A DNA stretch of 56,518 nt from Lysobacter antibioticus (GTDB lineage Bacteria > Pseudomonadota > Gammaproteobacteria > Xanthomonadales > Xanthomonadaceae), in assembly GCF_000731095.1 (NCBI RefSeq), contig NZ_JMTZ01000015.1, positions 1 to 56,518 on the forward strand, in the 5' to 3' direction. The translations under genes and the position numbers were made by a program. This document shows, one piece after another, positions 26,296 through 41,580 of the stretch. The notes beneath the pieces were generated by a model. The model searched no databases. It was not told where the DNA came from and was given only the letters and a program-made list of their open reading frames with translations. Positions within the stretch are counted from its first letter, which is position 1. Every line of letters begins with the position of its first letter.

Positions 26296-26317
26296 AACAA
26301 CGCATGTTGACGTTGTT
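26296..26317. repeat. Inverted repeat AACAACG-N8-CGTTGTT, candidate operator
   Basis: A perfect 7-bp inverted repeat with an 8-base spacer. It overlaps the putative -35 element of the operon promoter. Position and symmetry fit a dimeric regulator site. No regulator gene is in the operon, so the protein would be encoded elsewhere. Confidence 0.35.
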
Positions 26318-26336
26318 GCTTTGGATAATCGATAGT
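26307..26336 (+). promoter_or_regulatory. Candidate sigma-70-like promoter for the operon
   Basis: TTGACG (26307-26312) followed after 18 bases by GATAGT (26331-26336). It is the best-looking pair in the AT-rich stretch. The -10 is weak, so this is a suggestion only. Confidence 0.3.
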
Positions 26337-26672: not shown

Positions 26673-28814
26673 GTGGAAAAGTTGAGAGTGCTTCTGGTCG
26701 ATAACTACGACAGCTTCACCCACAACATCGCGCACTACCTGGGCGAGGCCAACGGCACGCCGCCCACGGTGGTCGCCAACGATCGCATCGAATGGGCGCA
26801 GATCGACGCCGCCGATTACGACGCGATCGTGATTTCCCCGGGCCCGGGCCGCCCGGAACGCGCCGGCGACATGGGTGTGAGCAACGACGTGCTCGCCATG
26901 GCCGCCGTGCCGGTGCTCGGCATCTGTCTGGGCCACCAGGCGCTGGTGCATGCCTTCGGCGGCAGCATCGTGCACGCGCCGGAGCCGATGCACGGGCGCC
27001 TGAGCGCGGTCGTGCACGACGGCAGCGCGCTGTTCGCCCACATTCCCTCGCCGTTCGACGTCGTGCGCTATCACTCGTTGATGGCGGCCGAGCCTCTGCC
27101 GGAAGGGTTGCGCGTGACCGCGCGCACCGCCGACGGCCTGGTGATGGCGCTCGAGCACGTCAGCCGCCCCCTGTGGGGCGTTCAGTTCCATCCCGAGTCG
27201 ATCCACACCGAATTCGGCCACCAGATCATCGACAACTTCATCGAATTGGCGCGCAGCCACACCTTGCGCAAGCGCAGACGCCGCAGTGGCGACAGCGCCG
27301 TCGGCAGCGAGCCGGAGACGGCACGGCCGGCACCGACGCAAGCCTGGCGCATCCAGTCGCGCCGCATCGGCGCCGAAGCCGATCCGCAGTCGGTGTTCCT
27401 GGAGTGCTTCGCCGCCAGCGATGCCGCGTTCTGGCTCGACTCCAGCGCGGTGCGTCCGGGCTATTCGCGTTTCAGCTTCATGGGCGACGGCAACGAGCCG
27501 GGCGCGCACAGCCTGGTGCATCGGGTCGGCCAGGGCAGCGGCGACGCCGGCGAAGGCGAGCGCTTGTTCGGCCGGATCCGCGACGGCCTGGCGGTCGCGC
27601 TGCACGGCGGCGAAACCCTGCCGTTCGATTTCGTCGGCGGCTGGGTCGGCTACTTCGGCTACGAGCTCAAGGCCTTGACCGAAGTCGGCGGCCCGCATCG
27701 CTCGCGCCAGCCGGACCTGTTCCTGCGCTTCATCAATCGCTTCCTCGCCTACGATCACCTGGAACGCTGCTGGCATGCGGTCGCCACCGGCCCGGCCGAG
27801 CGCGCAAGCGAAGACGCCGCCTGGCTCGAACGCATGGCCGCGCGCCTGGACCAGGTGCCGCCCGCGCCGGCGTTGCGCCACGGCGAGCGCGCAACGCCGG
27901 TGGAGTTCCACCTCGAACTCGACCGCGCCGCTTACAGCGAGCGCATCGGCCGCTGTTTCGAGCAGATCGGCGACGGCGAAACCTACGAGGTCTGCCTGAC
28001 CAATCGCCTGCGCGCACAGGTCGACCTGGACCCGGTCGAGCTGTATCGCCACCTGCGCCAGATCAACCCCGCGCCCTATTCCGCCTTGCTGCGCCACGAC
28101 GGTTTCGACGTACTGAGTTCTTCGCCCGAGCGCTTCCTGCGCCTGAGCCCGAACGGCGTGGTCGAGATCAAGCCGATCAAGGGCACCCGCCCGCGCTCGG
28201 CCCGCGACGAGGACGACCGCGCGGTCCTGGCCGAACTCAAGCACTGCGAGAAGGACCGCGCCGAGAACCTGATGATCGTCGACCTGACCCGCAACGACCT
28301 GGCCCGCGTGTGCGAGGTCGGCTCGGTGTGGGTGCCCAAGCTGATGCAGGTCGAGAGCTATGCCTCGGTGCATCAGCTGGTGTCGACGGTGCGCGCACAG
28401 CTGCGTGCAGGTTTGGACGTGATCGACCTGCTCCAGGCCACCTTCCCCGGCGGCTCGATGACCGGCGCGCCGAAGCGCCGCACCCTGGAAATCATCGACA
28501 CCCTCGAAGCCTCGGCGCGCGGCATCTATTCCGGCGCGATCGGCTATCTGTCGCTCAACGGCGCCGCCGACCTGAGCATGGTGATCCGCACCCTGGTCCA
28601 CCAGGACGGCAGTCTGGAGCTCGGCGTCGGCGGCGCGGTGATCGCGCTGTCGGATGCCGACGGCGAATTCGAGGAACTCCTGGTCAAGGCACGCGCGCCG
28701 ATGCGTGCGGTAGCGCGCTGCGCCAGCGGCGACGCCGAGGCCTGGCGAATTCCCGGCGAACTCTCGCCGCACACCGACGCACCCGCCGTTCCCGTCGCGC
28801 AGCTAGGGACTTAA
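26673..28814 (+). CDS. pabAB: Fused aminodeoxychorismate synthase (PabA-PabB)
   Basis: 713 aa. Starts at GTG 26673, chosen because AAGGAG lies 9 bases upstream and the glutamine-amidotransferase fold starts at residue 5. Residues 5-195 are the PabA part: DNYDSFTHN, ICLGHQA with nucleophile Cys85, and FHPES with His173-Glu175. A basic linker (about 196-225) leads to the PabB part. That carries SSSPERFLR, KPIKGTRPR with Lys503, TRNDLARVCEVGSV and FPGGSMTGAPKRR. The Lys in PIKGT marks aminodeoxychorismate synthase; anthranilate synthases have PIAGT. It converts chorismate and glutamine to 4-amino-4-deoxychorismate. First gene of the operon, 2 bases before the next. The fusion and its place with a PabC-like gene suggest a dedicated secondary-metabolite supply rather than folate. 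Confidence 0.95.
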   Translation: MEKLRVLLVDNYDSFTHNIAHYLGEANGTPPTVVANDRIEWAQIDAADYDAIVISPGPGRPERAGDMGVSNDVLAMAAVPVLGICLGHQALVHAFGGSIVHAPEPMHGRLSAVVHDGSALFAHIPSPFDVVRYHSLMAAEPLPEGLRVTARTADGLVMALEHVSRPLWGVQFHPESIHTEFGHQIIDNFIELARSHTLRKRRRRSGDSAVGSEPETARPAPTQAWRIQSRRIGAEADPQSVFLECFAASDAAFWLDSSAVRPGYSRFSFMGDGNEPGAHSLVHRVGQGSGDAGEGERLFGRIRDGLAVALHGGETLPFDFVGGWVGYFGYELKALTEVGGPHRSRQPDLFLRFINRFLAYDHLERCWHAVATGPAERASEDAAWLERMAARLDQVPPAPALRHGERATPVEFHLELDRAAYSERIGRCFEQIGDGETYEVCLTNRLRAQVDLDPVELYRHLRQINPAPYSALLRHDGFDVLSSSPERFLRLSPNGVVEIKPIKGTRPRSARDEDDRAVLAELKHCEKDRAENLMIVDLTRNDLARVCEVGSVWVPKLMQVESYASVHQLVSTVRAQLRAGLDVIDLLQATFPGGSMTGAPKRRTLEIIDTLEASARGIYSGAIGYLSLNGAADLSMVIRTLVHQDGSLELGVGGAVIALSDADGEFEELLVKARAPMRAVARCASGDAEAWRIPGELSPHTDAPAVPVAQLGT

Positions 28815-28816
28815 GC

Positions 28817-31537
28817 ATGCAACGCAGCCATATCGTCACCGGGGCCAATGGCTACCTGGGCTCCCACCTCGTGCTCGAACTGTTGCTCGGCCAGCCCGAA
28901 GCGCAGGTCGTCTGCATCGCCCGCAGCGATGGCGGCGACGCGCGGCAGCGGGTCGTCACCGCCGTGCGCCTGGCCGCGCAGACCTGCGGCCAGGCCTTGC
29001 AGGCCGAAGCACTGGCGCGCCTGCAGGTGGTGAGCGGCAATCCCTTACGGCCCGAGGCCGGTCTCGCCGAGCGCATCGCCCAGGCCGTCGCCGGCCGCGG
29101 CGACGCCACCTTCTGGCACGTCGCCGCGACCGTGCGCTTCACCGAATCCGAAGCCGGCGAGCTCGAACGCATCAACACCCAGGGCGCGACCCACGCGCTG
29201 GAACTGGCGATCGCCGCAGGCTGCTCGGACTACAACTACGTCAGCACCGCCTACGTCTGCGGCGACCGCAGCGGCGAGATCGCAGAACAGCTCGAGCCGC
29301 AGGCGCCGGCCAACTTCTCCAACCCCTATGAGCGCAGCAAGTTCGAAGCCGAGCGCCGCATCGTCGCGCGCGCCGAGGCCGCCGGCCTGGCCTGGCGGAT
29401 CCTGCGCCCGAGCATCATCGTCGGCCATTCGCGCACCTGGCTCAGCGCCAGCGACAGCGGCCTCTACAAGTTCTGCGAACTGCTGGAAGAGTTCTGGTCG
29501 TCGCAGCGCGGCGCGGCGGCGGCGCGCAGCCTGCGCTTCGCCGCACCGGAGAACGCGCACCTCAACCTGGTGCCGGTCGACGTGTGCGTGGCCGAAATGC
29601 TCGCCATCGACGCCAATACGGATAGCCGCAAGGGCATCTATCACCTGGTCTCGGCCAGCACGGTGCCGACCGCCGACTTCCTGTCCAGCGTCGCCGCGGC
29701 CACCGGCATCCCGCTGACGATGGCGAGCGCCCAGGAGCTGGCCGAACAACCGCTGTCGCGGCGCGAAGTCGAATTCGCGCGCCGTGTCGCCCATTACCGC
29801 CCTTACCTGTACGGCGACAAGCGCTTCGAGCGTGCCGCCAGCGTGCGCGCGTGCGGCAGCGACCTGCAAACCGAGCGCCGCATCGATCGCCAGGCAGTGC
29901 TGTCGTGGCTGCAGGCCTTCCTCAAGCGCAGCCGGGTGCATAGCGACGCTTCGCCGGAAGCGCGGCTGTTCACCCAGCAGCGTGCGTTACCGGCGCACTT
30001 CAACGTCACCGAGCATCTGCTGCAGGGCGCGGCGCGCGCCTACCCGGACAAGATCGCCATCCGCCACGAAGGCGGCGAGATCCGCTACGCCGAACTCGCC
30101 GAGCGCATCGCCGCCTGCGCACGGCGTTTGTCGGCGGCCGGCGTGCATTACCAACAACGGGTCGCGCTGATCTCGCACGACGGCATCGAGCATGTCGCTG
30201 CCTTGCTCGCGGTGATGCATCTCGGCGCGGTCTGCACGCTGATCAACCCGCTGCTGCCGGCGCGCGACATCGCCGCTTTGCTGGAACAGGCCGAGGTGAG
30301 CCTGGTGGTCGCCGACGTCACGGCCCGCCAGCGCCTGAACGAGATCGATGCCGGCGCGCCGCTGCTGCCGCTGGAAGCGGTCTGCGCCGCACCGAGCGGC
30401 CGCGAGCGCGAGCCGCTGTTGGCCTCGCCGACCGGGCCGCTGGACCATGCCTTCGCGGTATTCACTTCCGGCTCGGTCGGCCAGCCCAAGCTGATCGAGC
30501 ACCGGCACCTGGATCCGATCGTCGCCACCGAGCGCTATGCCGCCCACCTGCTCGATCTGCGCGTCAGCGACGTGCTGTTCTCGGCCTCGCGCACCAGCTT
30601 CGCCTTCGGCCTGCAGAACCTGCTGATCGCCCTGCTCAAGGGCGCGACCGCGGTGATCGCACCGCAGAAGATCTCGGCCGCGGTGGTCGCCGAGCTGATC
30701 GTCGCCGCGCGCCCGACCGTCATGTTCGCGGTGCCTACCGTCTATCAGTACCTGCTCGACGACGAGGCGCTGTCGAACCGGATCGAGGGCCGCAACAGCC
30801 TGCGCCTGTGCATCGCCGCCGGCGAACGCCTGCCGCAGGCGGTGGCGACGCGCTGGTTGCAGCGCCACGGCATCCGCCTGCTCGACAGTCTCGGCTCCAC
30901 CGAAGCCTTCTCGACCTACCTCAGCAATGTCGCCGACGGCGACTACCAGGGCTCGACCGGCAAGCTCGTGCCCGGCTTCGATGCGGTGCTGCGCCACCAC
31001 GACGGCCGTCCCTGCCGCAAGGGCGAACGCGGGGTGATGTGGCTGCGCGGGCCGTCGCTGTCGGTATCGCGCCAGGACCGCAACGCCGGCAGCCGATTCC
31101 ACGGCGGTTGGTACTGCACCAACGACGTGTTCTGGCGCGACGGCGACGGCTACTTCCACTTCTGCGGCCGCCACGACGAGATGTTCAAGGTCGCCGGGCA
31201 ATGGGTGTCGCCGCTCGACCTGGAGGAAGTGCTGCTGAGCCATCCGCTGGTGCGCGAGGCGGCGATCACCTCCAGCGCCGACGGCGTCGCCACCGAGGAC
31301 TCCAGCACCCTGCGCACCAAGGCCTGGGTGGTGTCCGACCAGGCCTCGCCGGACCTCGCCGAAGAATTGCGCACCCTGTGCAAGACCCGCCTGGATGCGC
31401 GGCGCTATCCGCACCTGGTCGAGTTCGTCGATGCGCTGCCGCGCACCAGCACCGGAAAGCTGCAGCGCGCTCCGCTGCGCAGACGCGCCGAGGAACAGTC
31501 GGCCGCCGCGCATGCCGCCGAAACCATCCCCGCCTGA
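28817..31537 (+). CDS. Thioester-reductase-like SDR fused to an adenylate-forming ligase
   Basis: 906 aa. Residues 1-370 are an extended SDR of the thioester-reductase/fatty-acyl reductase type: NAD(P) loop TGANGYLGSH (Gly9, Gly12, Gly15), YVSTAYV (141-147) and Tyr171-xxx-Lys175 in NPYERSKFEAER. Residues from about 385 to the end are an ANL adenylating domain. It shows FTSGSVGQPK (A3), DSLGSTEAF (A5), CTNDVFWRDGDGY and GRHDEMFKVAGQWVS (A7-A8), and STGKLQRAP with the A10 Lys. The usual order in carboxylic acid reductases is adenylation, carrier, reductase. Here the order is reversed and no carrier domain with the DSL motif is present. It may activate an aryl or acyl acid and reduce or transfer it. 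AGGGA precedes the ATG; 10 bases separate it from the next gene. Confidence 0.88.
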   Translation: MQRSHIVTGANGYLGSHLVLELLLGQPEAQVVCIARSDGGDARQRVVTAVRLAAQTCGQALQAEALARLQVVSGNPLRPEAGLAERIAQAVAGRGDATFWHVAATVRFTESEAGELERINTQGATHALELAIAAGCSDYNYVSTAYVCGDRSGEIAEQLEPQAPANFSNPYERSKFEAERRIVARAEAAGLAWRILRPSIIVGHSRTWLSASDSGLYKFCELLEEFWSSQRGAAAARSLRFAAPENAHLNLVPVDVCVAEMLAIDANTDSRKGIYHLVSASTVPTADFLSSVAAATGIPLTMASAQELAEQPLSRREVEFARRVAHYRPYLYGDKRFERAASVRACGSDLQTERRIDRQAVLSWLQAFLKRSRVHSDASPEARLFTQQRALPAHFNVTEHLLQGAARAYPDKIAIRHEGGEIRYAELAERIAACARRLSAAGVHYQQRVALISHDGIEHVAALLAVMHLGAVCTLINPLLPARDIAALLEQAEVSLVVADVTARQRLNEIDAGAPLLPLEAVCAAPSGREREPLLASPTGPLDHAFAVFTSGSVGQPKLIEHRHLDPIVATERYAAHLLDLRVSDVLFSASRTSFAFGLQNLLIALLKGATAVIAPQKISAAVVAELIVAARPTVMFAVPTVYQYLLDDEALSNRIEGRNSLRLCIAAGERLPQAVATRWLQRHGIRLLDSLGSTEAFSTYLSNVADGDYQGSTGKLVPGFDAVLRHHDGRPCRKGERGVMWLRGPSLSVSRQDRNAGSRFHGGWYCTNDVFWRDGDGYFHFCGRHDEMFKVAGQWVSPLDLEEVLLSHPLVREAAITSSADGVATEDSSTLRTKAWVVSDQASPDLAEELRTLCKTRLDARRYPHLVEFVDALPRTSTGKLQRAPLRRRAEEQSAAAHAAETIPA

Positions 31538-31547
31538 GGTAGACCCC

Positions 31548-33224
31548 ATGCTGTCCCGATTGAAGTTCATCTTCGATGGCGGCCTGACCGTCGCCAATGC
31601 GCTGGAGAAGTCGATCGCCGTCTACGGCGAAGATTTCGAAGTGCTGCGTTTCTCCGGCTCGCTCGAACGTTTCGGCGTCGGCGGACGGGCCATCACCGCC
31701 GGACAGCTGCGCCGGCTGTCGGACCGGCTGTCGCAGACCCTGCTCGACCTGGGCCTGGAACGCTACGACCGGGTCGCGATCTATCTCGACAACGGCGTCG
31801 AATACCTGATCTATTCGCTGGCCATCATGCGCGCCGGCGCGATCACCGTGCCGATCAACGGCGGCATGCGCGCCGAAGACCTCAACGCCTACCTCGACTA
31901 CACCGGCGCGCGCCTGGTCTTCATCGACCGCGAGCGGCTGCCGCGACTGGACGCGGGCGCGCTGGCGCAGGGCCGCCGCGTCGCCATCGTCACCGATGCC
32001 GTGCAGGCCGGCGATGCCGGCAGCGTGGCCCTGAGCGAATGCCTGGCGCCGCGCGCCGACGGTTTCGCGCCGGTGCGCATGCATCAGCACGACGACGTGA
32101 TGATCGTCCACACCTCCGGCACCACCGGCTTCCCCAAGGGCGTGCTGCACGGCTCCTACAGCCTGGTCCGCGCCACCAAGGGCCAGCTGATGATCCAGCC
32201 GATCACCCGCAACAACCGCATCCTGCTGGCCTCGCCGACCAACCACCACATCACCCAGGCCAGCATCGTCAGCTGCCTCGCCGCCGGCGTGCCCGGCTAC
32301 GTGCCGGCGAAGGAAACCCCCGAGCAACTGCTGTCGATCATTGAACGCGAGCGCTGCTCGCTGATCCTGTCCTTCCCCGACGTCTACCAGGGCATGTGCG
32401 ACGCCGGCCTGTCGCGCTTCGACCTGTCCCACGTCAAGGCCTGGATGGCCGGCGGCGACTCCAGCCACGAAGTGCACATCCGCCAGCTCACCGCGCACGG
32501 CGCGATGGCGCGGGTGTTCGGCAAGCGCCTGCTGAGCTCGATGTACCTGGAATTCTTCGGCACCTCCGAGGTCGGTTTCGCCGCTCTGATGAAGGTCAGC
32601 TTTTCCTTCACCAAGCGCTTCGACCGCTATGTCGGCAAGCCGACCATGGTCAGCCCCAAGGTCAAGATCGCCGACGAAGACGGCCGCGCGCTGCCGGTCG
32701 GCCAACCGGGCCGCCTGATGGTCAAGGGCCCGACCCTGTTCAAGGGCTATTGGAACGCCCACGACCGTTTGCACGGCGTGCATTTCGACGGCTGGTGGTG
32801 GACCGGCGATGTCGCGGTCAAGACCCGCGAAGGCGGTTACTACCACCTCGACCGCGAAGTGGATTCGATCCGCGTCGGCGACGGCCGCGTCTATTCGCTG
32901 CAGTGGGAGGAACGCATCCTCAAGCACCCGGCGGTGGCCGACGTGGCGGTGGTCGAGCTGAGCCGTGCCGACCGCAGCACCGGCGCCGGCGCGGTCATCG
33001 AATGCCGCCCCGGCCAACCGACCGACGCCAGCGCCTTCGAGGCCTGGCTGCGCCAACAGGTGCCCGGCTACGACGGCCTGCGTATCGAAGTGCTGCCGCC
33101 CGGCGAGCAACTGCCGCGCGGGCTCACCGGCAAGGTGCTCAAGCGCCACGTCCGCGAACGCTACGCGTCCGTGCCTGCCGCAGCGCCCGTCGTAACGCCC
33201 GCCACAGCCCCCGCCTCGATCTGA
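31548..33224 (+). CDS. Second adenylate-forming (AMP-dependent) ligase
   Basis: 558 aa, GAGG 8 bases before the ATG. ANL superfamily core: HTSGTTGFPKGVLHGS (A3, residues about 187-202), YLEFFGTSEVGFAAL (A5), DGWWWTGDVAVKTREGGYYHL (A7, shortened) and DREVDSIRVGDGRVYS (A8). The C-terminal lysine block is RGLTGKVLKRHVRERY. It should make an acyl- or aryl-adenylate and pass it to CoA or directly to an amine. The substrate code cannot be read without a structure; pABA or a fatty or aryl acid partner are candidates from context. It ends in an Ala/Pro/Val tail of about 20 aa. Part of the same operon. Confidence 0.88.
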   Translation: MLSRLKFIFDGGLTVANALEKSIAVYGEDFEVLRFSGSLERFGVGGRAITAGQLRRLSDRLSQTLLDLGLERYDRVAIYLDNGVEYLIYSLAIMRAGAITVPINGGMRAEDLNAYLDYTGARLVFIDRERLPRLDAGALAQGRRVAIVTDAVQAGDAGSVALSECLAPRADGFAPVRMHQHDDVMIVHTSGTTGFPKGVLHGSYSLVRATKGQLMIQPITRNNRILLASPTNHHITQASIVSCLAAGVPGYVPAKETPEQLLSIIERERCSLILSFPDVYQGMCDAGLSRFDLSHVKAWMAGGDSSHEVHIRQLTAHGAMARVFGKRLLSSMYLEFFGTSEVGFAALMKVSFSFTKRFDRYVGKPTMVSPKVKIADEDGRALPVGQPGRLMVKGPTLFKGYWNAHDRLHGVHFDGWWWTGDVAVKTREGGYYHLDREVDSIRVGDGRVYSLQWEERILKHPAVADVAVVELSRADRSTGAGAVIECRPGQPTDASAFEAWLRQQVPGYDGLRIEVLPPGEQLPRGLTGKVLKRHVRERYASVPAAAPVVTPATAPASI

Positions 33225-33257
33225 CCTTCCCATCACTTCACCGACAAGGACTTCCGC

Positions 33258-34070
33258 ATGAGCAGCACCGTTACCGCCATCGCCGACGCCCACGCCGCGC
33301 CGTTCGACTACGCCCCCGGCTCGATCGACTTTCCCGACCTGCCCAACGTGCCGGAAGAGTATCGCCACGAGCTGATCCGGCTGATGGCGATCCAGGCCTA
33401 TTCCGAAGAAAAGGCCGCCACCGAAGGCATCGAGTGGATCGCCAACGCGCCCGACTACAAGCGCCGCCGCGTGTTCGCCAAGATCATCGCCGAGGAAGCG
33501 CGCCATAGTTATCTGATCTATAACCTGCTCGAGCGCATGGGCGTTCCGGAAAAGCAGGCCATCGCCATCGCCGAAGGCCGCGCCCACCGGCCGATGCACG
33601 ACGCCTCGTTGGAGGGCCCGCTCAGCGTCGGCGACGAAAGCAACGAGTGGATCGACATCATGTTGAACCACATGTTCCTCGACCGCGCCGGCAAGTTCAT
33701 GGTCGGCAACTTCTGCGAAGCCAGCTTCAAGCCCTGGGCCGAAGCCAACCAGACCATCCTGCGCGAGGAGCGCGGCCACATCGGCTTCGGCTTCGCCGAA
33801 CTGCGCACCTACCTGGCCGAAAAGGGCGAGACCAACGAAGCGCGGATCAAGATCTCCAACTGGTACGCCAAGGGCCTGAACTTCTTCGGCCCGCCGTCGA
33901 CCTCGCGCGGCGCGCGGCTCAGCGCCTACGGCCTCAAGCGCAAGGACAACGAAACCCTGCGCAACGAGTTCCGCGCCGAAGTCGAGGACGTGTTCAACGA
34001 ACTCGGCCGCCAGGATCTGATCGAGCTGGAGAAGAACGACTTCCCCTACCGCTCCGGCAACGAGGGCTGA
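33258..34070 (+). CDS. Ferritin-like diiron oxygenase, BoxB/PaaA-like
   Basis: 270 aa, AAGGA before the ATG. Two helical ExxH motifs are clear: AEEARHSY (Glu80, His83) and REERGHIG (Glu171, His174). Other likely iron ligands are an acidic residue at 50-51 (YSEEKAAT) and Asp142 (FLDRAGKF), giving the E, ExxH, D, ExxH pattern of BoxB and the PaaA/PaaC family of ring-oxidising diiron proteins. Such enzymes epoxidise aromatic CoA thioesters; relatives of similar fold also oxidise amines. No reductase partner gene is in the operon. With pABA as the likely aromatic, it could oxidise either the ring or the nitrogen. The exact family is my reading of motif spacing. Confidence 0.75.
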   Translation: MSSTVTAIADAHAAPFDYAPGSIDFPDLPNVPEEYRHELIRLMAIQAYSEEKAATEGIEWIANAPDYKRRRVFAKIIAEEARHSYLIYNLLERMGVPEKQAIAIAEGRAHRPMHDASLEGPLSVGDESNEWIDIMLNHMFLDRAGKFMVGNFCEASFKPWAEANQTILREERGHIGFGFAELRTYLAEKGETNEARIKISNWYAKGLNFFGPPSTSRGARLSAYGLKRKDNETLRNEFRAEVEDVFNELGRQDLIELEKNDFPYRSGNEG

Positions 34071-34074
34071 GCCC

Positions 34075-35445
34075 ATGGCGCCGACGACCTCTCGCGACTT
34101 TCGCCTTGGACGCTTCAATCAGATCTACGCTCAACTCAACCTGATCTGCAACGCCAATTCCTGCGACTGGATCGAGCTGGACTCGGCGCCCGACCTCGCC
34201 CTGCTGAAGCGGGCGATCGAGCACACCATCGACCGTCATCCGCGCGCGCGCTCGGTCCAGTACCAGCGCGGCGTGATCCTGGGCTGGCGTCATCTGGCCC
34301 AGCGGTTGCCGATCGAAATCGAACAGCGCAGCAGCATCAACGTCGACCCGGCGCGTTTGCGCGCCGAGTTGCTCGGCAATGCCTGGAACGAACGCGTGCC
34401 GACCCGCGGCGGCCACCCGTTCCGCTTCATCTACACCCGCACGCCCGAGAAACACATCCTGCAGTTCCTCACCAGCCACACCTTCACCGACGGCAAGGCC
34501 GCGCAGTTGTTCTCCGGCGACATCGCCGAGGCCTACGGCCGCCTCTCGGCGGGGCTGCCGCTCGACCCGGAAGTGATCGACCTGCCCGAGCACAACCACG
34601 ACCGCCTGTTCCTGGCCAAGCTGCGCGGCGCCGAGGCGCTGCGCCTGGCCTGGAAAGGCGTGGCCGGCTTCTTCCACGACCTGGTCATGCCGGCCGGGCG
34701 TCTGCTCATCTCCGGCAAGCGCAGCGGCGAGACCGACGTGCTGATGATCGAGTTGCCGGCGCCGATGCTGGAAGCGCTCAAGGCCGCCGGCGCGCGCCGC
34801 GGCAGCACCATCCATCCGCTGCTGCTGCTCGCCCTGCTGCGCACCGCGCAGGCCGATGCCGGCCGCCAGGGCAAACGCCTCAAGCACGGCCTGCGCATCG
34901 TCGACAACTTCAGCCTGCGCCGCTTCGTCGACGACCCGCGCGTGCACAAGCTGTACGACTGCGTGGCCGTGCCGTATACGCTGGAACTGGACCCCAACGA
35001 AGACGACGAAGCGGTGATCCAGCGCGCCAACGCACGCCTGGACGCACTCAAGAACGGCGAGATCCTGTCCGAGCTGTACCGCTTCCGCCTGCTGTTCCAA
35101 AGCTCGCTGCTGCTGCCGAAGGCGGCGACGATCCGCTTCGCCGCCAACGTGCTGACCCGGGCCAACCTGATCTGCACCAACGTCGGCCCGATCGACACCC
35201 GCCTGGAGCACTTCGGCCCGATCCCGGTGCGCACCTATTACTCGTTCCCGCAGTTGTTCCCGCCGGGCGAGGTGATGGTGCAGGTCAGCGCCTTCCGCGG
35301 CCATCTGCGCCTGGTCTACCTCTACGACAAGGGCCAGATGAACGAGGCGCAGATGCGCGAGCGCTTCGTCTATCCGCTGATCGCCGAGCTGAGCCGCATC
35401 ACCGGTGCGAGCTCCCTTCCCGAACACATCGCCGCCCACGGCTGA
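34075..35445 (+). CDS. Condensation/acyltransferase-fold protein
   Basis: 456 aa, starting 4 bases after the previous stop. N-terminal region like NRPS condensation domains and WS/DGAT or alcohol-acyltransferase relatives: ...ALLKRAIEHTIDRHPRARS, then SHTFTDG at 134-140. The standard motif is HHxxxDG; the first His is replaced by Ser, but the catalytic second His (His135) and Asp139-Gly140 remain. A late NVGPIDTRLEHFG block resembles the conserved segment of this fold. It would join an activated acyl group to an amine or alcohol acceptor. A stand-alone copy with no carrier domain in the operon suggests CoA- or adenylate-bound donors. Confidence 0.78.
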   Translation: MAPTTSRDFRLGRFNQIYAQLNLICNANSCDWIELDSAPDLALLKRAIEHTIDRHPRARSVQYQRGVILGWRHLAQRLPIEIEQRSSINVDPARLRAELLGNAWNERVPTRGGHPFRFIYTRTPEKHILQFLTSHTFTDGKAAQLFSGDIAEAYGRLSAGLPLDPEVIDLPEHNHDRLFLAKLRGAEALRLAWKGVAGFFHDLVMPAGRLLISGKRSGETDVLMIELPAPMLEALKAAGARRGSTIHPLLLLALLRTAQADAGRQGKRLKHGLRIVDNFSLRRFVDDPRVHKLYDCVAVPYTLELDPNEDDEAVIQRANARLDALKNGEILSELYRFRLLFQSSLLLPKAATIRFAANVLTRANLICTNVGPIDTRLEHFGPIPVRTYYSFPQLFPPGEVMVQVSAFRGHLRLVYLYDKGQMNEAQMRERFVYPLIAELSRITGASSLPEHIAAHG

Positions 35446-35451
35446 GCCCCC

Positions 35452-37812
35452 ATGCGCCCCCTGATCCTCCGCATCCTCGCCTACCCGCGCACCTGCCTGA
35501 TCCTGTTGCTGGCGTTGCTGGCGTTGTCCGGCCTGGCCCTGACCCAGCTGCGCTTCGACAACACGCCCGACTCGTTCTTCATGCAAGACGACCCGGCGCT
35601 GATCAAGTACACCCAGTACAAGGCGGACTTCGGCAGCGACGAATACAGCTTCCTGGTGCTCGATGCGCCCGCGCAGTGGACGCCGGCCTTCATCGCCAAC
35701 GTGCGCGATCTCGGCGCACGCATCGAGGCGATGGACAACGTCAACAAGGTCACCACCCTCGCCAACGTGCGCCACATCGCCAGCGTCGACGGCGGCGGCC
35801 TCGACGTCGGCCCCTTCCTCGGCGAAGACCTCGACGCGGCGGCTCTGGCGGCCAAGCGCAGCGAGGCCCTGGCCCATCCCTACTACCGCAACTTCCTGAT
35901 CAGCGGCGACGGCCGTCACCTCGGCATCCTGGCCGAGACCGGGGTCCGACCGGGCGAAATCGTCTACAAGATCGAGCTGGCCAAGAAGATCCGCGCCTTG
36001 GCCCAGGCGCCGGAGTTCAAGCGCTTGAACATGCGCGTGGTCGGCGCGCCGATCATCGACGCCGACGTGTTCACCATCATCAACCGCGAAAGCGCGATCT
36101 TCGGCACGCTATCCTTCATCCTGGTCTCGGTCGGGTTCTGGCTGATCTTCCGCTCCTGGGCGGTCGCCTTGCTGCCGCTGGTGGTCGCGTCCTTGTCGAT
36201 CGTGGTGGCGATGGCAGTCAGCGCCCTGATCGGCGCGCCGATCGGCATGCTCACCGCGATCATTCCCTCGTTCCTGATCTCGGTCGGAGTCGGTTCCAGC
36301 ATCTTCCTGCTCGCCGAGGTCTATCGCCAGTACGCCGCCGGCGGCGACCTGCGCGCGGCGATCGTCGAAGGCTTCAGCCACTCGGCAGGCGCCAGCGCCT
36401 TGTCGGTGCTGACCACTGCCGGCGCGCTGCTGTCGTTCTCGTGGTCGGAGATCCGGCCGGTGCAGGGCATCGGCATCTCGATGGCGGCGGGGTTGGTCGC
36501 GTCCTTGCTGATCGGCTGGCTGCTGATCCCGCTGGCGCTGAGCCGTTTTCGTTTATTGCCGGATGCGCAGCGCGCGGCGCGTTTGCTCGACGGCCGCGTG
36601 CGCGGCATGCACTGGCTCGCCGACTTCGTCACCCGGCGCTGGCGCCTGCTGTTGCTGGTGCTGGCCGGGCTGATCGCGGTCGCCGGCTTCGGCGTCGCCC
36701 GCGTCACCACCGACTACTACTACGTCGGCCTGTTCAAGCCCCACACCGACATCTACCGCTCCTACACTTACGTCGACCAGACCCTGCGCGGCGCCGCCTC
36801 GATGGAGCTGATCGTCGACAGCGCCGGCGTCGGCGGCGAGTCGATCAAGGACCCGGCGGTGCTCAAGCGCATGCGCGAGCTGCAGGACCGGCTGGAAGCG
36901 CGCTACGGCGCCCTCGGCCTGAAGACTTACAGCATCGCCGACGTGGTGATGGAGATCAGCCAGGCCCTGCACGAAGGCGACAAGGCCGCCTACCGCATCC
37001 CGGACTCGCGCGCCGAGGTGGCCGAGTCGCTGATCCTGTTCGAGTCCTCCGGCACCGACGAGCTGACCCGTCTGGTCACCGGCGACTACGCCAAGGCGCG
37101 CATCAACCTGCGCATGAAGTACCGGCCCGATTCGCAGTACCAGCCGCTGTTCCGCGACATCCAGGCCGAAGCCGAACGGATCCTGCGCGAGACGCCGCAG
37201 ATCAGATCGATCGAAACCACCGGCGTGGTGCCGCTGTGGTCGCGCCTGACCAACTACCTGGCCAGCAACGAGATCCGCAGCATCGGCCTGTCGTTCTTCG
37301 TGGTGCTGACGGTGATGGTGCTGGTGTTCCGCTCGGCCACGCTCGGCCTGACCATGGCCTTGTGCAACCTGGTGCCGGTGGCCATCGCCCTGGCGGTGAT
37401 GGGCTTCGGCGGCGTGTTCCTGGACCCGTTCACCCTGCTGGTGTCGGCGATCGCAATCGGCATCCTCGACGACGACACCCTGCATTTCGTCAAGACCGTC
37501 GTCGACCACTACCGGCGCAAGCACGACATGGCCGCGGCCTTGCGCGACACCTTCGCCAGCACCGGCCTGGCGATGCTGCTGCTGTCGAGCGTGCTGGTGC
37601 TCGGCTTCGTCATCTACATGCTGTCGGAAGTGCAAAGCCTGGCCAAGTTCGGCGGCGTCACCGCGCTGGCGATCGGCGTCGGCGCGCTGTGCGAGTTCCT
37701 GTTCACGCCCGCGGTGCTGATGGGCCTGGAGCGCGTCGGCCTGTTGCGCCATCTGTTACCGCGCGAAGCCGACGGCGCCTCGTCGACCCACACGATCCAG
37801 GAGACCCCATGA
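35452..37812 (+). CDS. MMPL/RND-type export permease
   Basis: 786 aa inner-membrane permease. N-terminal transmembrane helix (TCLILLLALLALSGLALTQ), a periplasmic loop to about residue 215, then five helices (about 220-360). A second half repeats this: helix near 400, loop to about 595, helices to 765. This is the duplicated RND plan, at the size of the MMPL/HAE3 group that moves lipids and lipid-like metabolites. Acidic residues lie in the transmembrane segment AIGILDDDTLHFVKT, where proton relay residues occur in the family. Starts 6 bases after the acyltransferase; its stop overlaps the next ATG. Confidence 0.92.
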   Translation: MRPLILRILAYPRTCLILLLALLALSGLALTQLRFDNTPDSFFMQDDPALIKYTQYKADFGSDEYSFLVLDAPAQWTPAFIANVRDLGARIEAMDNVNKVTTLANVRHIASVDGGGLDVGPFLGEDLDAAALAAKRSEALAHPYYRNFLISGDGRHLGILAETGVRPGEIVYKIELAKKIRALAQAPEFKRLNMRVVGAPIIDADVFTIINRESAIFGTLSFILVSVGFWLIFRSWAVALLPLVVASLSIVVAMAVSALIGAPIGMLTAIIPSFLISVGVGSSIFLLAEVYRQYAAGGDLRAAIVEGFSHSAGASALSVLTTAGALLSFSWSEIRPVQGIGISMAAGLVASLLIGWLLIPLALSRFRLLPDAQRAARLLDGRVRGMHWLADFVTRRWRLLLLVLAGLIAVAGFGVARVTTDYYYVGLFKPHTDIYRSYTYVDQTLRGAASMELIVDSAGVGGESIKDPAVLKRMRELQDRLEARYGALGLKTYSIADVVMEISQALHEGDKAAYRIPDSRAEVAESLILFESSGTDELTRLVTGDYAKARINLRMKYRPDSQYQPLFRDIQAEAERILRETPQIRSIETTGVVPLWSRLTNYLASNEIRSIGLSFFVVLTVMVLVFRSATLGLTMALCNLVPVAIALAVMGFGGVFLDPFTLLVSAIAIGILDDDTLHFVKTVVDHYRRKHDMAAALRDTFASTGLAMLLLSSVLVLGFVIYMLSEVQSLAKFGGVTALAIGVGALCEFLFTPAVLMGLERVGLLRHLLPREADGASSTHTIQETP

Positions 37813-38627
37813 TCCGTCCCCTCACCCTGCGCCTTGCCGGCGCGGCGCTCGCGGGCGTCGCTGCTGCAGTTATTTCCTTGGCCGCGCCGGCCCAGGACGG
37901 CGCCAAACCGAGCGCGCAACAGATCTTCGAACGCAGCAGCGCGACCGAGAAAGTCGCCGACTGGCAGGCCGACAGCCAGCTCGGCATCCGCCAGGGCGAA
38001 CGCGTGCGCAACCGCGGCGGCGTGGTCTACAACAAGCTGCAAACCGACGCGGTCGACAGCCATCGCCTGTTCCGCTTCGCCACGCCGGCCGACGTCGCCG
38101 GCACCGCGGTGCTGGTGCACGAGAACGCCGCCAGCCAGGACGACCTGTGGATCTATTTCCCCAGCATGGGCAAGACCCGGCGCATCCTGGCCTCGAACAA
38201 GAAAGACAGCTTCATGGGCTCGGACTTCGCCTACGCCGACCTGATGGCCCAGGATAGCGCCGATTTCACCCATGCCCTGCTCGCCGACGAGCCCTGCGCC
38301 AACGCGACCTGCTACGTGGTGCAGTCGGTGCCGCGCGATGCCAAGACCGCGGCCTCGCTCGGCTATTCCAAGCTCGTCGCGACCGTGCGCAAAAACGATT
38401 TCGCCGCGGTATCGGTACGTTACTTCGACAAGTCCGGGCAGGAGTTCAAGCGCCAGACCATCTCCGGCCACGTCGCCGTGGCCAACCAGCCCGGCAAGCT
38501 CATCGCCACCCGCCGCGAGATGGTCGCGGCCAAGGGCGGCCGCAGCTCGGTGCTGACCCTGAAGAACGTCAACAGCAACCGCGCCCTGCGCGAAGACCTC
38601 TTCATCGAATCGCGCCTGGGCCAGTGA
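37809..38627 (+). CDS. LolA-like outer-membrane lipoprotein-sorting family protein
   Basis: 272 aa, ATG overlapping the permease stop (ATGA). Signal peptide ending near SLAAPAQ. The mature protein reads like the LolA-like family that is found beside MMPL permeases: QQIFERSSATEKVADWQADS, LVHENAASQDDLWIYFPSMG, SNKKDSFMGSDFAYADL, and a C-terminal KNVNSNRALREDLFIES. The half-open beta-barrel of this fold binds hydrophobic molecules in the periplasm. It should shuttle the operon's product from the permease to the outer membrane. Confidence 0.85.
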   Translation: MIRPLTLRLAGAALAGVAAAVISLAAPAQDGAKPSAQQIFERSSATEKVADWQADSQLGIRQGERVRNRGGVVYNKLQTDAVDSHRLFRFATPADVAGTAVLVHENAASQDDLWIYFPSMGKTRRILASNKKDSFMGSDFAYADLMAQDSADFTHALLADEPCANATCYVVQSVPRDAKTAASLGYSKLVATVRKNDFAAVSVRYFDKSGQEFKRQTISGHVAVANQPGKLIATRREMVAAKGGRSSVLTLKNVNSNRALREDLFIESRLGQ

Positions 38628-39937
38628 TGCGCCGTATGACCCTCGCCGCCGCCGTCGCCGCTGCGTACTGCGCTTCGCTGCCGGCGATGGCGCAGGCCGG
38701 CGTGGACGTCGTCGCGCCGGCCGAGGCCGCAGAGTCCGCGCCAGAGCAAGCCGCCACCGAAGACGTTCCCGAGAATGCTGTCGACGGCGTGCGCTGGACC
38801 GGCACCGCCTCCGGCGCCGCGCTGGCCGCCAGCGGCAGCCGCGACCTCGACGATGTCGGCTCGCGCCTCGGCCTGGCGGCGCGGCTGCGCAGCGAACTGC
38901 GCGGCGAGGCCTGGCGCGGCTTGATCGAAGCCGTGGGCGGCACCCGTCAGCTCGCTTATGACGACGCGCCGGTGCTGCGCCAGGGCTTCGTCGAATACAC
39001 CCACGGCCCGCTGCAACTACGCGCAGGGCGGCAAATTGTGGTCTGGGGCCGCGCCGACCGCCTCAACCCGACCGACAATATTTCCCCACGCAATATGCGC
39101 GCGCTGGTCAGCGACATCGACGAAGACCGCATGGGCATCGATCTGCTCTCGGCACGTCTGCAGTTGCACGAACGCTGGTCGCTGGCGGCGCTGCACATAC
39201 CGAAGTTGCGCGCCAGCATCCTGCCGGCCTCACTGTGGAAGCCGGTCCCTTCGTTGCATGGCGACCGCATCCGCGCGCCGGGGTCGACCGATGCGCTGCG
39301 CCTGGACTACGCCGGCAACGGCCTCGATGCCTCGCTCAGCGTCGTGCGCGGTTACTCCATCCTGCCCGCCTTCGCCTATGCCGCCGGCCCGCAGTTAGCG
39401 CAGGCGGAAGTGCGCGTGCTCGGCGCCGACTTCAGCGCTTCGCTCGGCGAGCATTGGGGGCTGCGCGGCGAACTGGCCGACACCCGCTTCGAGGGGCCAC
39501 CGCCGCCGGGCCTCGGCGATCATTTCTATGCCGTGCTCGGCCTCGAGCGCCATTTCGACGGCGGCTGGCTCGGCCTGGCCCAGTACGTACACCGGCGCGC
39601 CGAGCGAACCCGTTCGCCCGGCGCGCAGCCGGACTTCGTACTGCGCGCCAATCGCGCAGTCTGGTTCCAGAACCACGCCGACAGCGATGCGCTCTACCTC
39701 GGCCTGACCCGCGCGCAGCTGGAAGGCGACCTCAGCGGCGACATCGGCTTGCTGCAGACCACCCACGGTCGCGGCCGCGCCTGGTTCGCCAATCTCGAAT
39801 ACCGACTCGACGATCGCTGGAGCCTGCTCGCGCGCTGGCAACACTTCACCGGCCCGGCCGACTCCGATCTCGGCGCGCTGCGCAAGGACCGCCTGATGCT
39901 GCTGGAACTGCGCCGCACCTGGGGTTGGCAACGATGA
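38627..39937 (+). CDS. DUF1302-like outer-membrane beta-barrel
   Basis: 436 aa. The ATG at 38627 shares its first base with the previous stop; a GTG directly before it (38624) is an alternative. Signal peptide ending AMAQA. The mature protein alternates in strand-like fashion, with LRAGRQIVVWGRADRLNPTD, the block characteristic of DUF1302-type barrels that pair with LolA-like and MMPL proteins. It ends in a terminal aromatic strand (LELRRTWGWQR). It completes a three-layer export route with the two preceding genes. Confidence 0.8.
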   Translation: MRRMTLAAAVAAAYCASLPAMAQAGVDVVAPAEAAESAPEQAATEDVPENAVDGVRWTGTASGAALAASGSRDLDDVGSRLGLAARLRSELRGEAWRGLIEAVGGTRQLAYDDAPVLRQGFVEYTHGPLQLRAGRQIVVWGRADRLNPTDNISPRNMRALVSDIDEDRMGIDLLSARLQLHERWSLAALHIPKLRASILPASLWKPVPSLHGDRIRAPGSTDALRLDYAGNGLDASLSVVRGYSILPAFAYAAGPQLAQAEVRVLGADFSASLGEHWGLRGELADTRFEGPPPPGLGDHFYAVLGLERHFDGGWLGLAQYVHRRAERTRSPGAQPDFVLRANRAVWFQNHADSDALYLGLTRAQLEGDLSGDIGLLQTTHGRGRAWFANLEYRLDDRWSLLARWQHFTGPADSDLGALRKDRLMLLELRRTWGWQR

Positions 39938-40842
39938 TCTGGCTCGACGGCCATCTGGTGGATGCCGAGCACGCCAAGGTCTCGGTGTTCGACCGCGGCT
40001 TTCTCTATGGCGACGGCTTGTTCGAAACCTTGCCGGTCTACGACGGCATGCCCTTCTTGCTCGACGAACATCTGCGGCGGCTCCAGGACGGCGCGCGCGC
40101 CTTGCGCTACCTCGACCCACCGTCCGAACAGCACTGGCGCGCGGCCGCGGCCGCGGTGATCGGCGCCTGCAAGGAGCCGTCCTCGACCCTGCGCCTGTGG
40201 ATGAGCCGCGGCCGCAGCGCCGGCTTGTCCTGCAGCGGCGCGCATCGGCCGACCTGGGTCGCCGCCTGCCTGCCGGCGCGTTACTACGAGCCGCATATCC
40301 ACGAGCAGGGCACGACCCTGTTCGCGAGCGAGCGCATTCACCTCCTGCCGGATCAGTCACCGACCGCCTGCAAGCACGCGAACTACCTCGGCTCGATCCT
40401 GGCCTTCGATGAGGCGCAGACCCACGCCGCCGACGAAGCGCTGCTGTGCAACGCGCGCGGCCAGGTCTGCGAAGGCGCCTACAGCAACCTGTTCTTCGTG
40501 CTCGACGGCGAACTGATCACCCCGCCCTTGAGCGAGGGCCCGCTCGCCGGCATCGCCCGCGCCTGCGTGCTGTCACTGGCCGCCGCGCTGGGCCTGCGCC
40601 ATGCCGAACGTCCGCTGGCCTACGCGCGGCTCGGCGACACTGAAGAAGCCTTCATGACCAATTCCCTGATCGGCCTGGCGCCGATCCGCCGCGTCGTCGA
40701 CGCGCGCGGCACCGTGGCCGAATGGGCCCCCGGGCCGATCACGCGCCGCCTCGGCGCGGCCTATGCCGACCTCGTCCGCAAACGCACCGGTGCGGCCTGG
40801 CCGCCCGTCCACCGCCCTTCCCACACAACGCAACGATCCTAA
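39934..40842 (+). CDS. pabC: Aminodeoxychorismate lyase-like class IV PLP enzyme (PabC)
   Basis: 302 aa, ATG overlapping the previous stop (ATGA). Class IV aminotransferase fold: FDRGFLYGDGLFETLPVYDG at the N-terminus, then ACKHANYLGSI with PLP-binding Lys147. Further on are EGAYSNLFFVLDGELITPP and GIARACVL. In the operon with pabAB it most likely eliminates pyruvate from aminodeoxychorismate to give pABA. The fold is shared with D-amino-acid and branched-chain aminotransferases, so a transamination role cannot be excluded from sequence alone. Nine bases before the next gene. Confidence 0.88.
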   Translation: MIWLDGHLVDAEHAKVSVFDRGFLYGDGLFETLPVYDGMPFLLDEHLRRLQDGARALRYLDPPSEQHWRAAAAAVIGACKEPSSTLRLWMSRGRSAGLSCSGAHRPTWVAACLPARYYEPHIHEQGTTLFASERIHLLPDQSPTACKHANYLGSILAFDEAQTHAADEALLCNARGQVCEGAYSNLFFVLDGELITPPLSEGPLAGIARACVLSLAAALGLRHAERPLAYARLGDTEEAFMTNSLIGLAPIRRVVDARGTVAEWAPGPITRRLGAAYADLVRKRTGAAWPPVHRPSHTTQRS

Positions 40843-40851
40843 AGGAACGCC

Positions 40852-41571
40852 ATGCACGTCATCGAAGACATCCATGCCCGCCCGGACGCGCCGCCCGCGC
40901 TGTGGGACGACCTGTTCCCGCCGGGCCTGCTGCTCGAACTGGAGCGCCATCCCTTTCTGCGCCGTTGCCGCGAAGGCGAGCGCGCACTGGAAATGCTGCG
41001 TGCGTTCCTGGTCCAGCACAGCTATTACTCGGAACACTTCACCCGCTATCTGTGCGCGCTGATGTCGCGCATGCCGAGCAACGAGGACGTGCGCGCGCTG
41101 GCGATGAACCTGGTCGAGGAAACCGGTCTCGACCGGCCCCATGCGGTCACCCACGCCGAGTTGTACCGCCGCTGCCTGGGCGAGATCGGCGTGCAGCCGC
41201 GCAGTGCGCCGATCCTGGCCGAAACCACGGCGCTGATCGAAAGCATGTTCCACTATTGCCGCTCGCCCGACCCGCTCGACGGCCTGGCGGCCCTGTGCCT
41301 GGGCGCCGAAGCGATCGTGCCGACCTTGTACGGCGGCATCCTCGACGGCCTGCGCGCGGCCGGCTACAGCAACGAGCAACTGCACTTCTTCGTCCTGCAC
41401 GTCAGCGAGGACGAAGACCACGCCCTGGTCATGCGCGACATCATCAACCGCCTGCTGCAGGACCACCCGCACCGCCGCGCCAAGGTCGTCGCCGTGGGCG
41501 AAGACATGATCCGCCTGCGCATGAGCCTGCTCGATGCCGTGCTGGCAAGGCATCCGGCGATCCATGGCTGA
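40852..41571 (+). CDS. Heme-oxygenase-like diiron oxidase (CADD/TenA-like fold)
   Basis: 239 aa, AAAGGA 8 bases before the ATG. All-helical protein with a full set of metal-binding residues in the order Glu90, His97, Glu153, His183, Asp187, His190. The spacings (E-x6-H, then a lone E, then H-x3-D-x2-H) match the heme-oxygenase-like diiron oxidases such as Chlamydia CADD, BesC and UndA. CADD makes pABA in chlamydiae that lack the pab genes. Here complete pab functions are already present, so this enzyme more likely oxidises pABA or a product, for example at nitrogen or by C-C cleavage. Last gene of the operon. Confidence 0.85.
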   Translation: MHVIEDIHARPDAPPALWDDLFPPGLLLELERHPFLRRCREGERALEMLRAFLVQHSYYSEHFTRYLCALMSRMPSNEDVRALAMNLVEETGLDRPHAVTHAELYRRCLGEIGVQPRSAPILAETTALIESMFHYCRSPDPLDGLAALCLGAEAIVPTLYGGILDGLRAAGYSNEQLHFFVLHVSEDEDHALVMRDIINRLLQDHPHRRAKVVAVGEDMIRLRMSLLDAVLARHPAIHG

Positions 41572-41580
41572 GGGGCGAAC

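Follow-up and report, generated by a model that had tools for sequence, protein, structure and literature searches.

We analysed a 56,518-nucleotide stretch of the Lysobacter antibioticus genome (contig NZ_JMTZ01000015.1, hereafter the window) and focus here on a ten-gene operon, g1 to g10, on its plus strand at 26673-41571. On balance we slightly favour a reading in which this operon converts p-aminobenzoate (pABA), through ATP-dependent diazotisation, to a small aromatic metabolite and exports it, with a diazo, azo or diazotisation-dependent compound predicted from the gene content as the leading idea for the product. A broader and more tentative proposal, to which we give somewhat less than even weight, is that the operon represents a carrier-free Gram-negative cluster family, present in Lysobacter, in a Lysobacterales metagenome-assembled genome (MAG) and on Leisingera plasmids, which would convert pABA to aromatic diazo (o-quinone diazide) or azo metabolites for export, on a ring prepared by interchangeable PaaA-, BoxB- or PobA-like oxygenases; this family would be a branch of enzymatic diazotisation outside the actinobacteria that is built on pABA, and g3 would found a new diazotase clade.

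The ten reading frames are intact, each with a single terminal stop, and from g1 to g10 are separated by 2, 10, 33, 4, 6, -4, -1, -4 and 9 bases, in agreement with the genes, order and gaps given by a first-pass annotation made from the letters alone. Pfam matches were obtained for nine of the ten proteins, the exception being g5, and no carrier-protein, ketosynthase or regulator domain was found among the ten, which bears out the earlier statement that a polyketide synthase, a nonribosomal peptide synthetase (NRPS) carrier and a regulator are missing. The protein families were also as that annotation had claimed, but the reductase and the first of its two adenylate-forming enzymes, listed there separately, are one fused 906-aa protein (g2). 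A single promoter-like site lies upstream of the operon at 26307-26336, where about one is expected by chance in the stretch scanned (mean 1.3). The genes are as follows.

26673-28814, + strand: g1, pabAB, fused glutamine amidotransferase and aminodeoxychorismate synthase (Pfam GATase, Anth_synt_I_N, Chorismate_bind; TIGR00553)
28817-31537, + strand: g2, thioester-reductase-like NAD(P)-binding domain and benzoate-CoA-ligase-like adenylation domain (Pfam NAD_binding_4, AMP-binding)
31548-33224, + strand: g3, proposed ATP-dependent diazotase/N-nitrosylase-type ANL enzyme (Pfam AMP-binding; PDB ranking, AvaA6 model, tree, signature)
33258-34070, + strand: g4, PaaA-type (catalytic, not PaaC-type) diiron oxygenase (Pfam PaaA_PaaC, 72.2 bits; ligand residues)
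34075-35445, + strand: g5, condensation-fold acyltransferase with an HTFTDG (HxxxDG) motif (fold search on a weak model; no Pfam or NCBIfam match)
35452-37812, + strand: g6, MMPL/RND-family exporter, inner membrane (Pfam MMPL, 92.5 bits)
37809-38627, + strand: g7, LolA-like periplasmic carrier (Pfam LolA_like, 156.4 bits)
38627-39937, + strand: g8, DUF1302 protein, a probable outer-membrane barrel by prediction (Pfam DUF1302, 29.9 bits, cut-off 23.2)
39934-40842, + strand: g9, class IV PLP enzyme, aminodeoxychorismate lyase (PabC) or aminotransferase (Pfam Aminotran_4)
40852-41571, + strand: g10, haem-oxygenase-like diiron oxidase (HDO) (Pfam Haem_oxygenas_2, 96.7 bits)

Relationship of g3 to diazotases and acyl ligases

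Judged from its sequence relatives, g3 is likely to be an ATP-dependent diazotase/N-nitrosylase-type enzyme. Its best four matches in the Protein Data Bank (PDB) are 8ztz, 9xb8, 9bq0 and 8tf7 (E 3.6e-55 to 3.6e-46), followed by FadD13 at 6.6e-36; the PDB listing states no function for 8ztz and 9xb8, and 9bq0 and 8tf7 are Tri17 of the triacsin pathway, described in the accessible part of a review as a promiscuous N-nitrosylase that also forms diazo compounds from anilines (PMC11705231). Tri17 shares the GDxxHxxHIR signature discussed below with g3 but is only about 27% identical to it, and the triacsin substrate is a hydrazone (PMC11705231). Among NCBIfam models the AvaA6 diazotase ranks second for g3 (229.9 bits), as it also does for the copies in two related loci, L009 and L026.

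In a tree of 27 rows, seven g3 rows and nine diazotase-like rows were joined by a 100/100 branch apart from 11 acyl ligases; the tree is unrooted, CreM and AvaA6 themselves are absent from its rows, the E. coli FadD and PDB rows are partial, the diazotase clade has few reference rows, and four of the nine diazotase-like rows (L031, L033, L035, L040) are unproven candidates. Among 456 columns, 17 diagnostic columns tied g3 to the diazotase-like rows and four to the acyl ligases, a balance of 14 to 3 with one row per lineage and of 14 to 5 when the candidates were left out and the reference was limited to five rows from nitrite-type clusters or the PDB. As a control, none of 56 acyl-ligase triples showed a balance toward the diazotase-like rows, with at most two such columns. 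The motif GDxxHxxHIR/K, a signature derived in this analysis and not a published definition, is present in 6/7 g3 rows (GDSSHEVHIR in g3 itself) and 8/9 diazotase-like reference rows, and its core GDxxH in all 16 of these; neither occurs in any of the 11 acyl ligases. The best plasmid relatives of g3 outside Leisingera include two Streptomyces enzymes (L032, L034) that adjoin methyltransferase, FAD-protein and lyase genes. The L032 lyase, which the lyase model scan covered, is a nitrosuccinate lyase (774.2 bits, cut-off 650), the enzyme releasing nitrite for diazotisation.

These data also bear on the alternative that g3 activates a fatty or aromatic acid as an acyl-CoA ligase, in which case it would load an acyl group, g5 would transfer it and the MMPL/LolA/DUF1302 set would export a lipid-like amide or ester of pABA or p-aminobenzyl alcohol. 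The top NCBIfam model of g3 is indeed that of a broad family of long-chain-fatty-acid-CoA ligases (235.0 bits where the cut-off is 476), a condensation-fold acyltransferase requires an activated donor, and MMPL and LolA-like proteins often handle hydrophobic products. The diagnostic residues, tree and PDB ranking of g3 nevertheless fall with diazotases and N-nitrosylases, and an aryl-CoA-ligase-like domain is already provided by g2, and we regard an acyl ligase as unlikely, if still worth serious consideration. The grouping of g3 with diazotases/N-nitrosylases and apart from the 11 acyl ligases sampled likewise speaks against the product first suggested for the operon, an N-oxidised or simple amide derivative of pABA.

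Two of the candidate rows have gene surroundings of their own. A Klebsiella michiganensis BD177 plasmid (NZ_CP048110.1, L040:7510-13443) carries a row of genes that may form a Gram-negative cluster for diazotisation or deamination of 3-amino-4-hydroxybenzoate. They encode a 3-dehydroquinate synthase II, a 2-amino-3,7-dideoxyheptulosonate synthase, a reductase resembling AvaA7 (82.6 bits, cut-off 400), an MFS transporter and, at 303.2 bits against the AvaA6 cut-off of 975, a diazotase-like enzyme. On a Sinorhizobium medicae plasmid (NZ_CP149880.1, L033:1-17560), NRPS, 3-dehydroquinate synthase II and 4-hydroxyphenylacetate hydroxylase-like genes surround a diazotase-like AMP-binding protein (352 bits with AvaA6, same cut-off).

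Supply of p-aminobenzoate and the other operon enzymes

The first gene, g1, starts with GTG, with AAGGAG ending 9 bases upstream, and at 364.3 bits against the pabB model TIGR00553 (cut-off 328.4) it is identified as an aminodeoxychorismate synthase. Anthranilate synthase equivalogs, among the 25 families listed for g1, fall below their own cut-offs, and the protein contains PIKGT, the lysine of which we take to mark aminodeoxychorismate synthase. As the genome holds a further pabAB (L002, a 737-aa frame, 373.2 bits) and a separate PabC (L023, 226.9 bits, cut-off 176.85), both above curated cut-offs, the operon pabAB is an additional copy, and the earlier description of a carrier-free, pABA-dedicated pathway with an export set is supported. 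An anthranilate or phenazine link was considered for g1, and the other chorismate-binding matches of the genome lie elsewhere, namely a TrpE over its cut-off (L001), the second pabAB, L004, where the frame read holds a 2,3-dihydroxybenzoate-ligase-like region, and L005. The last of these, on contig C9, is a 708-aa protein with chorismate-binding and amidotransferase parts that passes no curated cut-off and is possibly PhzE-like, on our assumption that Lysobacter makes phenazines.

The class IV enzyme g9 falls under the cut-offs of both PabC models (139.6 bits against 176.85 and 150.5 against 260) and is not assigned as PabC by them; its best NCBIfam model is a branched-chain aminotransferase subfamily (178.4 bits, also under cut-off). 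We considered g9 as an amine-forming transaminase standing in for the class III aminotransferase of the related clusters described below, an idea made less likely by Leisingera, which has both enzymes and whose class IV protein comes nearest to PabC, though at 115.8 bits it is under the cut-off of 260.

The 906 residues of g2 comprise a reductase-like domain (about 1-380) and an adenylation domain (about 390-906) with no carrier domain. The adenylation part is closest in the PDB to benzoate-CoA ligases (6m2u, E 1.4e-76) and then to the anthranilate-CoA ligase 4wv3, and the reductase part is nearest to SDR and thioester reductases (TIGR01746, 118.2 bits, under the cut-off of 213.35). Assignment of g2 as a standard carboxylic acid reductase, with adenylation, carrier and reductase domains in that order (A-T-R), was rejected on account of its reversed order, reductase then adenylation, and missing carrier domain.

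The oxygenase g4 keeps the residues aligned to E42, E72, H75 and D126 of E. coli PaaA, the first three of which are lost in PaaC, and the last ExxH of the diiron pattern was read by eye from the same alignment. Of the ligand numbers assumed for PaaA, positions 157 and 160 did not carry E and H. The BoxB-like protein of the MAG retains the same four equivalents, as in catalytic PaaA/BoxB-type subunits. In comparison with the phenylacetyl-CoA epoxidase PaaA and the benzoyl-CoA epoxidase BoxB, with which both proteins share this ligand pattern, g4 is far below the PaaA equivalog cut-off (68.4 bits, cut-off 280), is not classed as a PaaA subunit and is without partners, no PaaB, C, D, E or BoxA gene being found by Pfam among the ten. 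The structure model of g4 (mean pLDDT 43.6) was not used.

For g5, which has no Pfam or NCBIfam match, the CAT-like fold of a weak model (mean pLDDT 55.5) and the HxxxDG motif place the protein in the condensation-domain superfamily. The best fold match has an E of 4.9e-12, with low whole-chain TM-scores of about 0.3, and the 50 matches listed are either condensation-type domains of NRPSs or larger NRPS proteins that include such a domain, with one (8s6l) named a dehydratase; PapA- and BAHD-type acyltransferases do not appear among the 50 in the VIA-align list, an absence that proves nothing. The products of g6, g7 and g8 look like an inner-membrane pump, a periplasmic carrier and an outer-membrane protein, respectively, and all three are also found in both distant clusters, in the MAG and in Leisingera, with g8 counterparts recovered by tblastn in L009 and L026.

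The closest PDB relatives of g10 are CADD-type 4-aminobenzoate synthases (E 3e-09), with which it aligns and shares, by eye, the HDO ligand residues, taking the ligand numbers as we presume them to be. It differs from CADD in score (55.7 bits, cut-off 200), falling outside that family, and by eye has neither Tyr27 nor Lys152 at the aligned positions. Since these are, we assume, the residues sacrificed by CADD, a role for g10 as a second, self-sacrificing source of pABA was rejected.

Related clusters, the proposed pathway and the evidence weighed

The clusters of the three lineages, Lysobacter, the Lysobacterales MAG and Leisingera, have in common pabAB, the aryl-ligase domain, g3, g5 and the export genes, and differ in two slots. 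The oxygenase slot is occupied in Lysobacter by a PaaA-like enzyme, in the MAG by a BoxB-like one (473.2 bits, cut-off 499.1) and in Leisingera by a PobA-like one. The reductase slot holds NAD_binding_4 in Lysobacter, and in the MAG and the Leisingera locus L026 an acyl-reductase region of the type found in PigE of prodigiosin biosynthesis and in acyl-ACP reductases, fused to a class III aminotransferase and an adenylation domain. By analogy with PigE and carboxylic acid reductases the likely logic of this fusion, as predicted from its domains, is acid to aldehyde to amine, although the PigE matches are under cut-off, and g2 differs in its reductase and in having neither aminotransferase nor carrier.

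The Leisingera PobA keeps the five substrate-binding residues checked (Tyr201, Ser212, Arg214, Tyr222 and Tyr385), and at position 294 all three near-identical Leisingera copies have Ser where 6/6 ordinary PobAs, chosen from the 29 non-Leisingera rows listed of 247 records matched, have Thr. In the available text of a study of another PobA, T294S raised production of 4-amino-3-hydroxybenzoate from p-aminobenzoate, as did Y201F and M106A (PMC10466732). According to the part of the review available, a hydroxyl on the ring is required by all diazotases except SpiA7, and in its examples this group sits ortho or para to the amine (PMC11705231). Taken together, the variation of the oxygenase slot, Ser294 of PobA and this hydroxyl requirement suggest that the slot supplies g3 with an ortho-aminophenol.

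What the sequences show are protein families, motifs and gene sets held in common, and from them we infer every substrate, the order of steps, the nitrite source and the product of the following scheme. Chorismate would be converted to pABA by g1 with g9 or the housekeeping PabC, and the adenylation domain of g2 would activate pABA as 4-aminobenzoyl-AMP or -CoA. The ring would then be oxygenated by g4, most usefully next to the amine; in Leisingera the corresponding oxygenation would be done by a PobA-type enzyme acting on the free acid. An aldehyde (or alcohol) may next be formed by the reductase domain of g2, and g5 may couple an acyl group to an amine or alcohol. With ATP and nitrite, g3 would convert the aryl amine to a diazonium; with a hydroxyl in the ortho position this would be held as an o-quinone diazide, the form known from cremeomycin, and g6 to g8 would move the product across both membranes.

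The same slots bear on two further explanations. In the first, g4 and/or g10 would oxidise the amine of pABA to a hydroxylamine, nitroso or nitro group, as AurF and AzoC do, to give a nitro or azoxy product, leaving g3 with some other activating role. Ferritin-like and HDO enzymes can act on nitrogen, the diiron ligand residues are kept in g4 and g10, and g4 has a weak match to a VlmB homologue (E 0.023). The g4 slot is nevertheless filled by a BoxB-like or PobA-like protein in the related clusters, and tblastn gave no counterpart of g10 in the loci of the MAG or Leisingera; we consider N-oxidation improbable, and the use of ring-oxygenase relatives in this slot argues a second time against the N-oxidised or amide product first proposed. 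In the other explanation the pathway would merely pass through the diazonium and release the amine as N2, like the avenalumic and p-coumaric acid pathways, where the same enzyme family acts with AvaA7/CmaA7 according to the accessible portions of two papers (PMC10777205, PMC11705231). An NAD-dependent epimerase-like protein of the Leisingera cluster does match AvaA7, if weakly (30.4 bits, cut-off 400), but AvaA7 is not among the ten families listed for the g2 reductase domain, which matches thioester reductases, and the operon has no separate reductase gene, which makes deamination very improbable.

A number of observations weigh against the diazotisation that we favour. For g3, the broad acyl-CoA ligase model PRK06187 (235.0 bits) scores slightly above AvaA6, whereas four diazotase-like rows reach 303-357 bits with AvaA6 and only 151-168 with PRK06187. 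g3 is also far under the curated AvaA6 cut-off (NF058622, 975) and is for this reason not filed as AvaA6, for which alone that model is the equivalog; L032 (331.2 bits) and L034 (356.8 bits), from nitrite-type surroundings, are likewise under it. The tree contains three rows with odd letter composition and one long branch, and the g3 rows group in a clade separate from the diazotase-like rows next to them, so that, the tree being unrooted, a different reaction for g3 is possible. PaaA and BoxB normally require partner subunits or reductases, none of which the ten genes include. The Leisingera PobA retains Tyr201 and has Thr, not Ala, at position 106.

Nitrite is the other difficulty. Pfam found no nitrite-forming genes (creE/creD) among the ten, and the L. 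antibioticus genome gave no CreE-like match in a search made without a positive control, only superfamily-level matches to the nitrosuccinate lyase CreD (48 bits, against 771 in the positive control, none over cut-off), no nitrate reductase narG over cut-off and no formate/nitrite transporter. The Leisingera plasmid record likewise had no nitrosuccinate lyase match. In the three loci read of the five Leisingera records a formate/nitrite-family transporter gene lies 10 bases from the exporter gene, but it is under the family cut-offs and its matches do not separate formate from nitrite, so it may carry formate. Because nitrite genes are also missing from 72/134 ava-like clusters in the accessible part of one survey (PMC10777205), we treat their absence as a gap and not as a refutation. 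Elsewhere, in the same-genus genome G1051 (C45:15010-17886), two adjoining frames match nitrosuccinate lyase with 288 and 219 bits, above other superfamily matches and under cut-off, and could be PcaB-like.

Several diazotase clusters start from 3-amino-4-hydroxybenzoate. Like cremeomycin (cre), ava, cma, aha and spi, the operon is proposed to use an ATP-dependent ANL enzyme on an aromatic amine from a dedicated aminobenzoate pathway, and in these systems the ring usually bears a hydroxyl beside or para to the amine, as far as the text available describes them (PMC11705231). According to the same partial source those clusters are actinobacterial, and many carry creE/creD for nitrite; in the operon, by contrast, the amine would come from chorismate via PabAB, a nitrite cassette and a carrier protein are lacking, and the export set is of Gram-negative type. 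Actinomycetes are the source of the diazotases named in the accessible part of that review (PMC11705231), and in the part available of a 2026 survey Proteobacteria are among the clusters of another, hydrazone-based diazo route; its 469 predicted diazo clusters may include relatives of the operon (PMC13061610).

Diazo groups are rare and reactive, and are of interest as drug leads and carbene sources. If our reading is right, a diazotase pathway in Gram-negative bacteria that is fed by pABA, a common metabolite, would broaden the search for such compounds and add a new enzyme clade, and searches relying on nitrite genes or carrier proteins could miss clusters of this kind. It also predicts that the three different oxygenases (PaaA-, BoxB- and PobA-like) should yield the same hydroxylated aminobenzoyl intermediate.

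Distribution, boundaries and neighbouring genes

All ten genes were matched by tblastn in the same order in three other loci, L015 (Lysobacter sp. yr284), L016 and L017. Similarity between the window and these loci by blastn starts at 26682-26691 and ends at 41546-41573, at most 25 bases from the operon ends, and no blastn match longer than 150 bases was found in the flanks compared (about 2.5 kb upstream and 3.7 kb downstream). As the similarity stops at its edges, the operon is a discrete unit in differing surroundings, and the conserved order together with these edges indicates that the unit is more than chance. The closest genome, G1039, with a g5 97% identical, is collinear with the window far past the operon.

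With g5 as the marker gene for this cluster family, matches were found in 3/20 genomes of the genus and 2/398 genomes sampled in the order, our own genome counted in each, in 1/369 genomes of the class (our own), and in 2/299 at phylum level (our own and one weak match within a 2207-aa frame). A family search around G114 gave 2/43, G114 itself and one weak match in a 2604-aa frame, and a class-level search around G980 gave 0/385 with no positive control included. A scan of named genomes found five loci, three in Lysobacter/Lysobacteraceae (82-85% identity) and two contigs of one Lysobacterales MAG; this was a single pass with two short peptide patterns, which distant relatives may escape, and is not a census. 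Among 72,556 plasmid records there were five matches, all Leisingera. In these searches good g5 relatives are thus limited to Lysobacter-type genomes, the one MAG and the Leisingera plasmids. For g4, none of ten pattern matches in viral contigs was confirmed.

The earlier suggestion that no described cluster has this content also stands within the literature searched, a scope outside which lie MIBiG, subscription papers and supplements, in that no recognisable description of the ten-gene cluster was found there. A Ruegeria killing cluster was judged unrelated from the part of its report available (PMC7426152).

Beside the cluster in all three Leisingera plasmid loci read (L026, L027, L028) lie genes for a LuxI-type synthase, an alpha/beta hydrolase and a LuxR-type regulator, suggesting from gene content that the Leisingera cluster is under quorum control; in L027 the pabAB and fused aminotransferase genes are annotated in pieces. 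Just downstream of the operon in the window, at 42605-44125 on the minus strand, is a gene for a protein with X-Tfes XVIPCD and GH-E HNH nuclease domains, which resembles what we take to be a type IV secretion effector against other bacteria.

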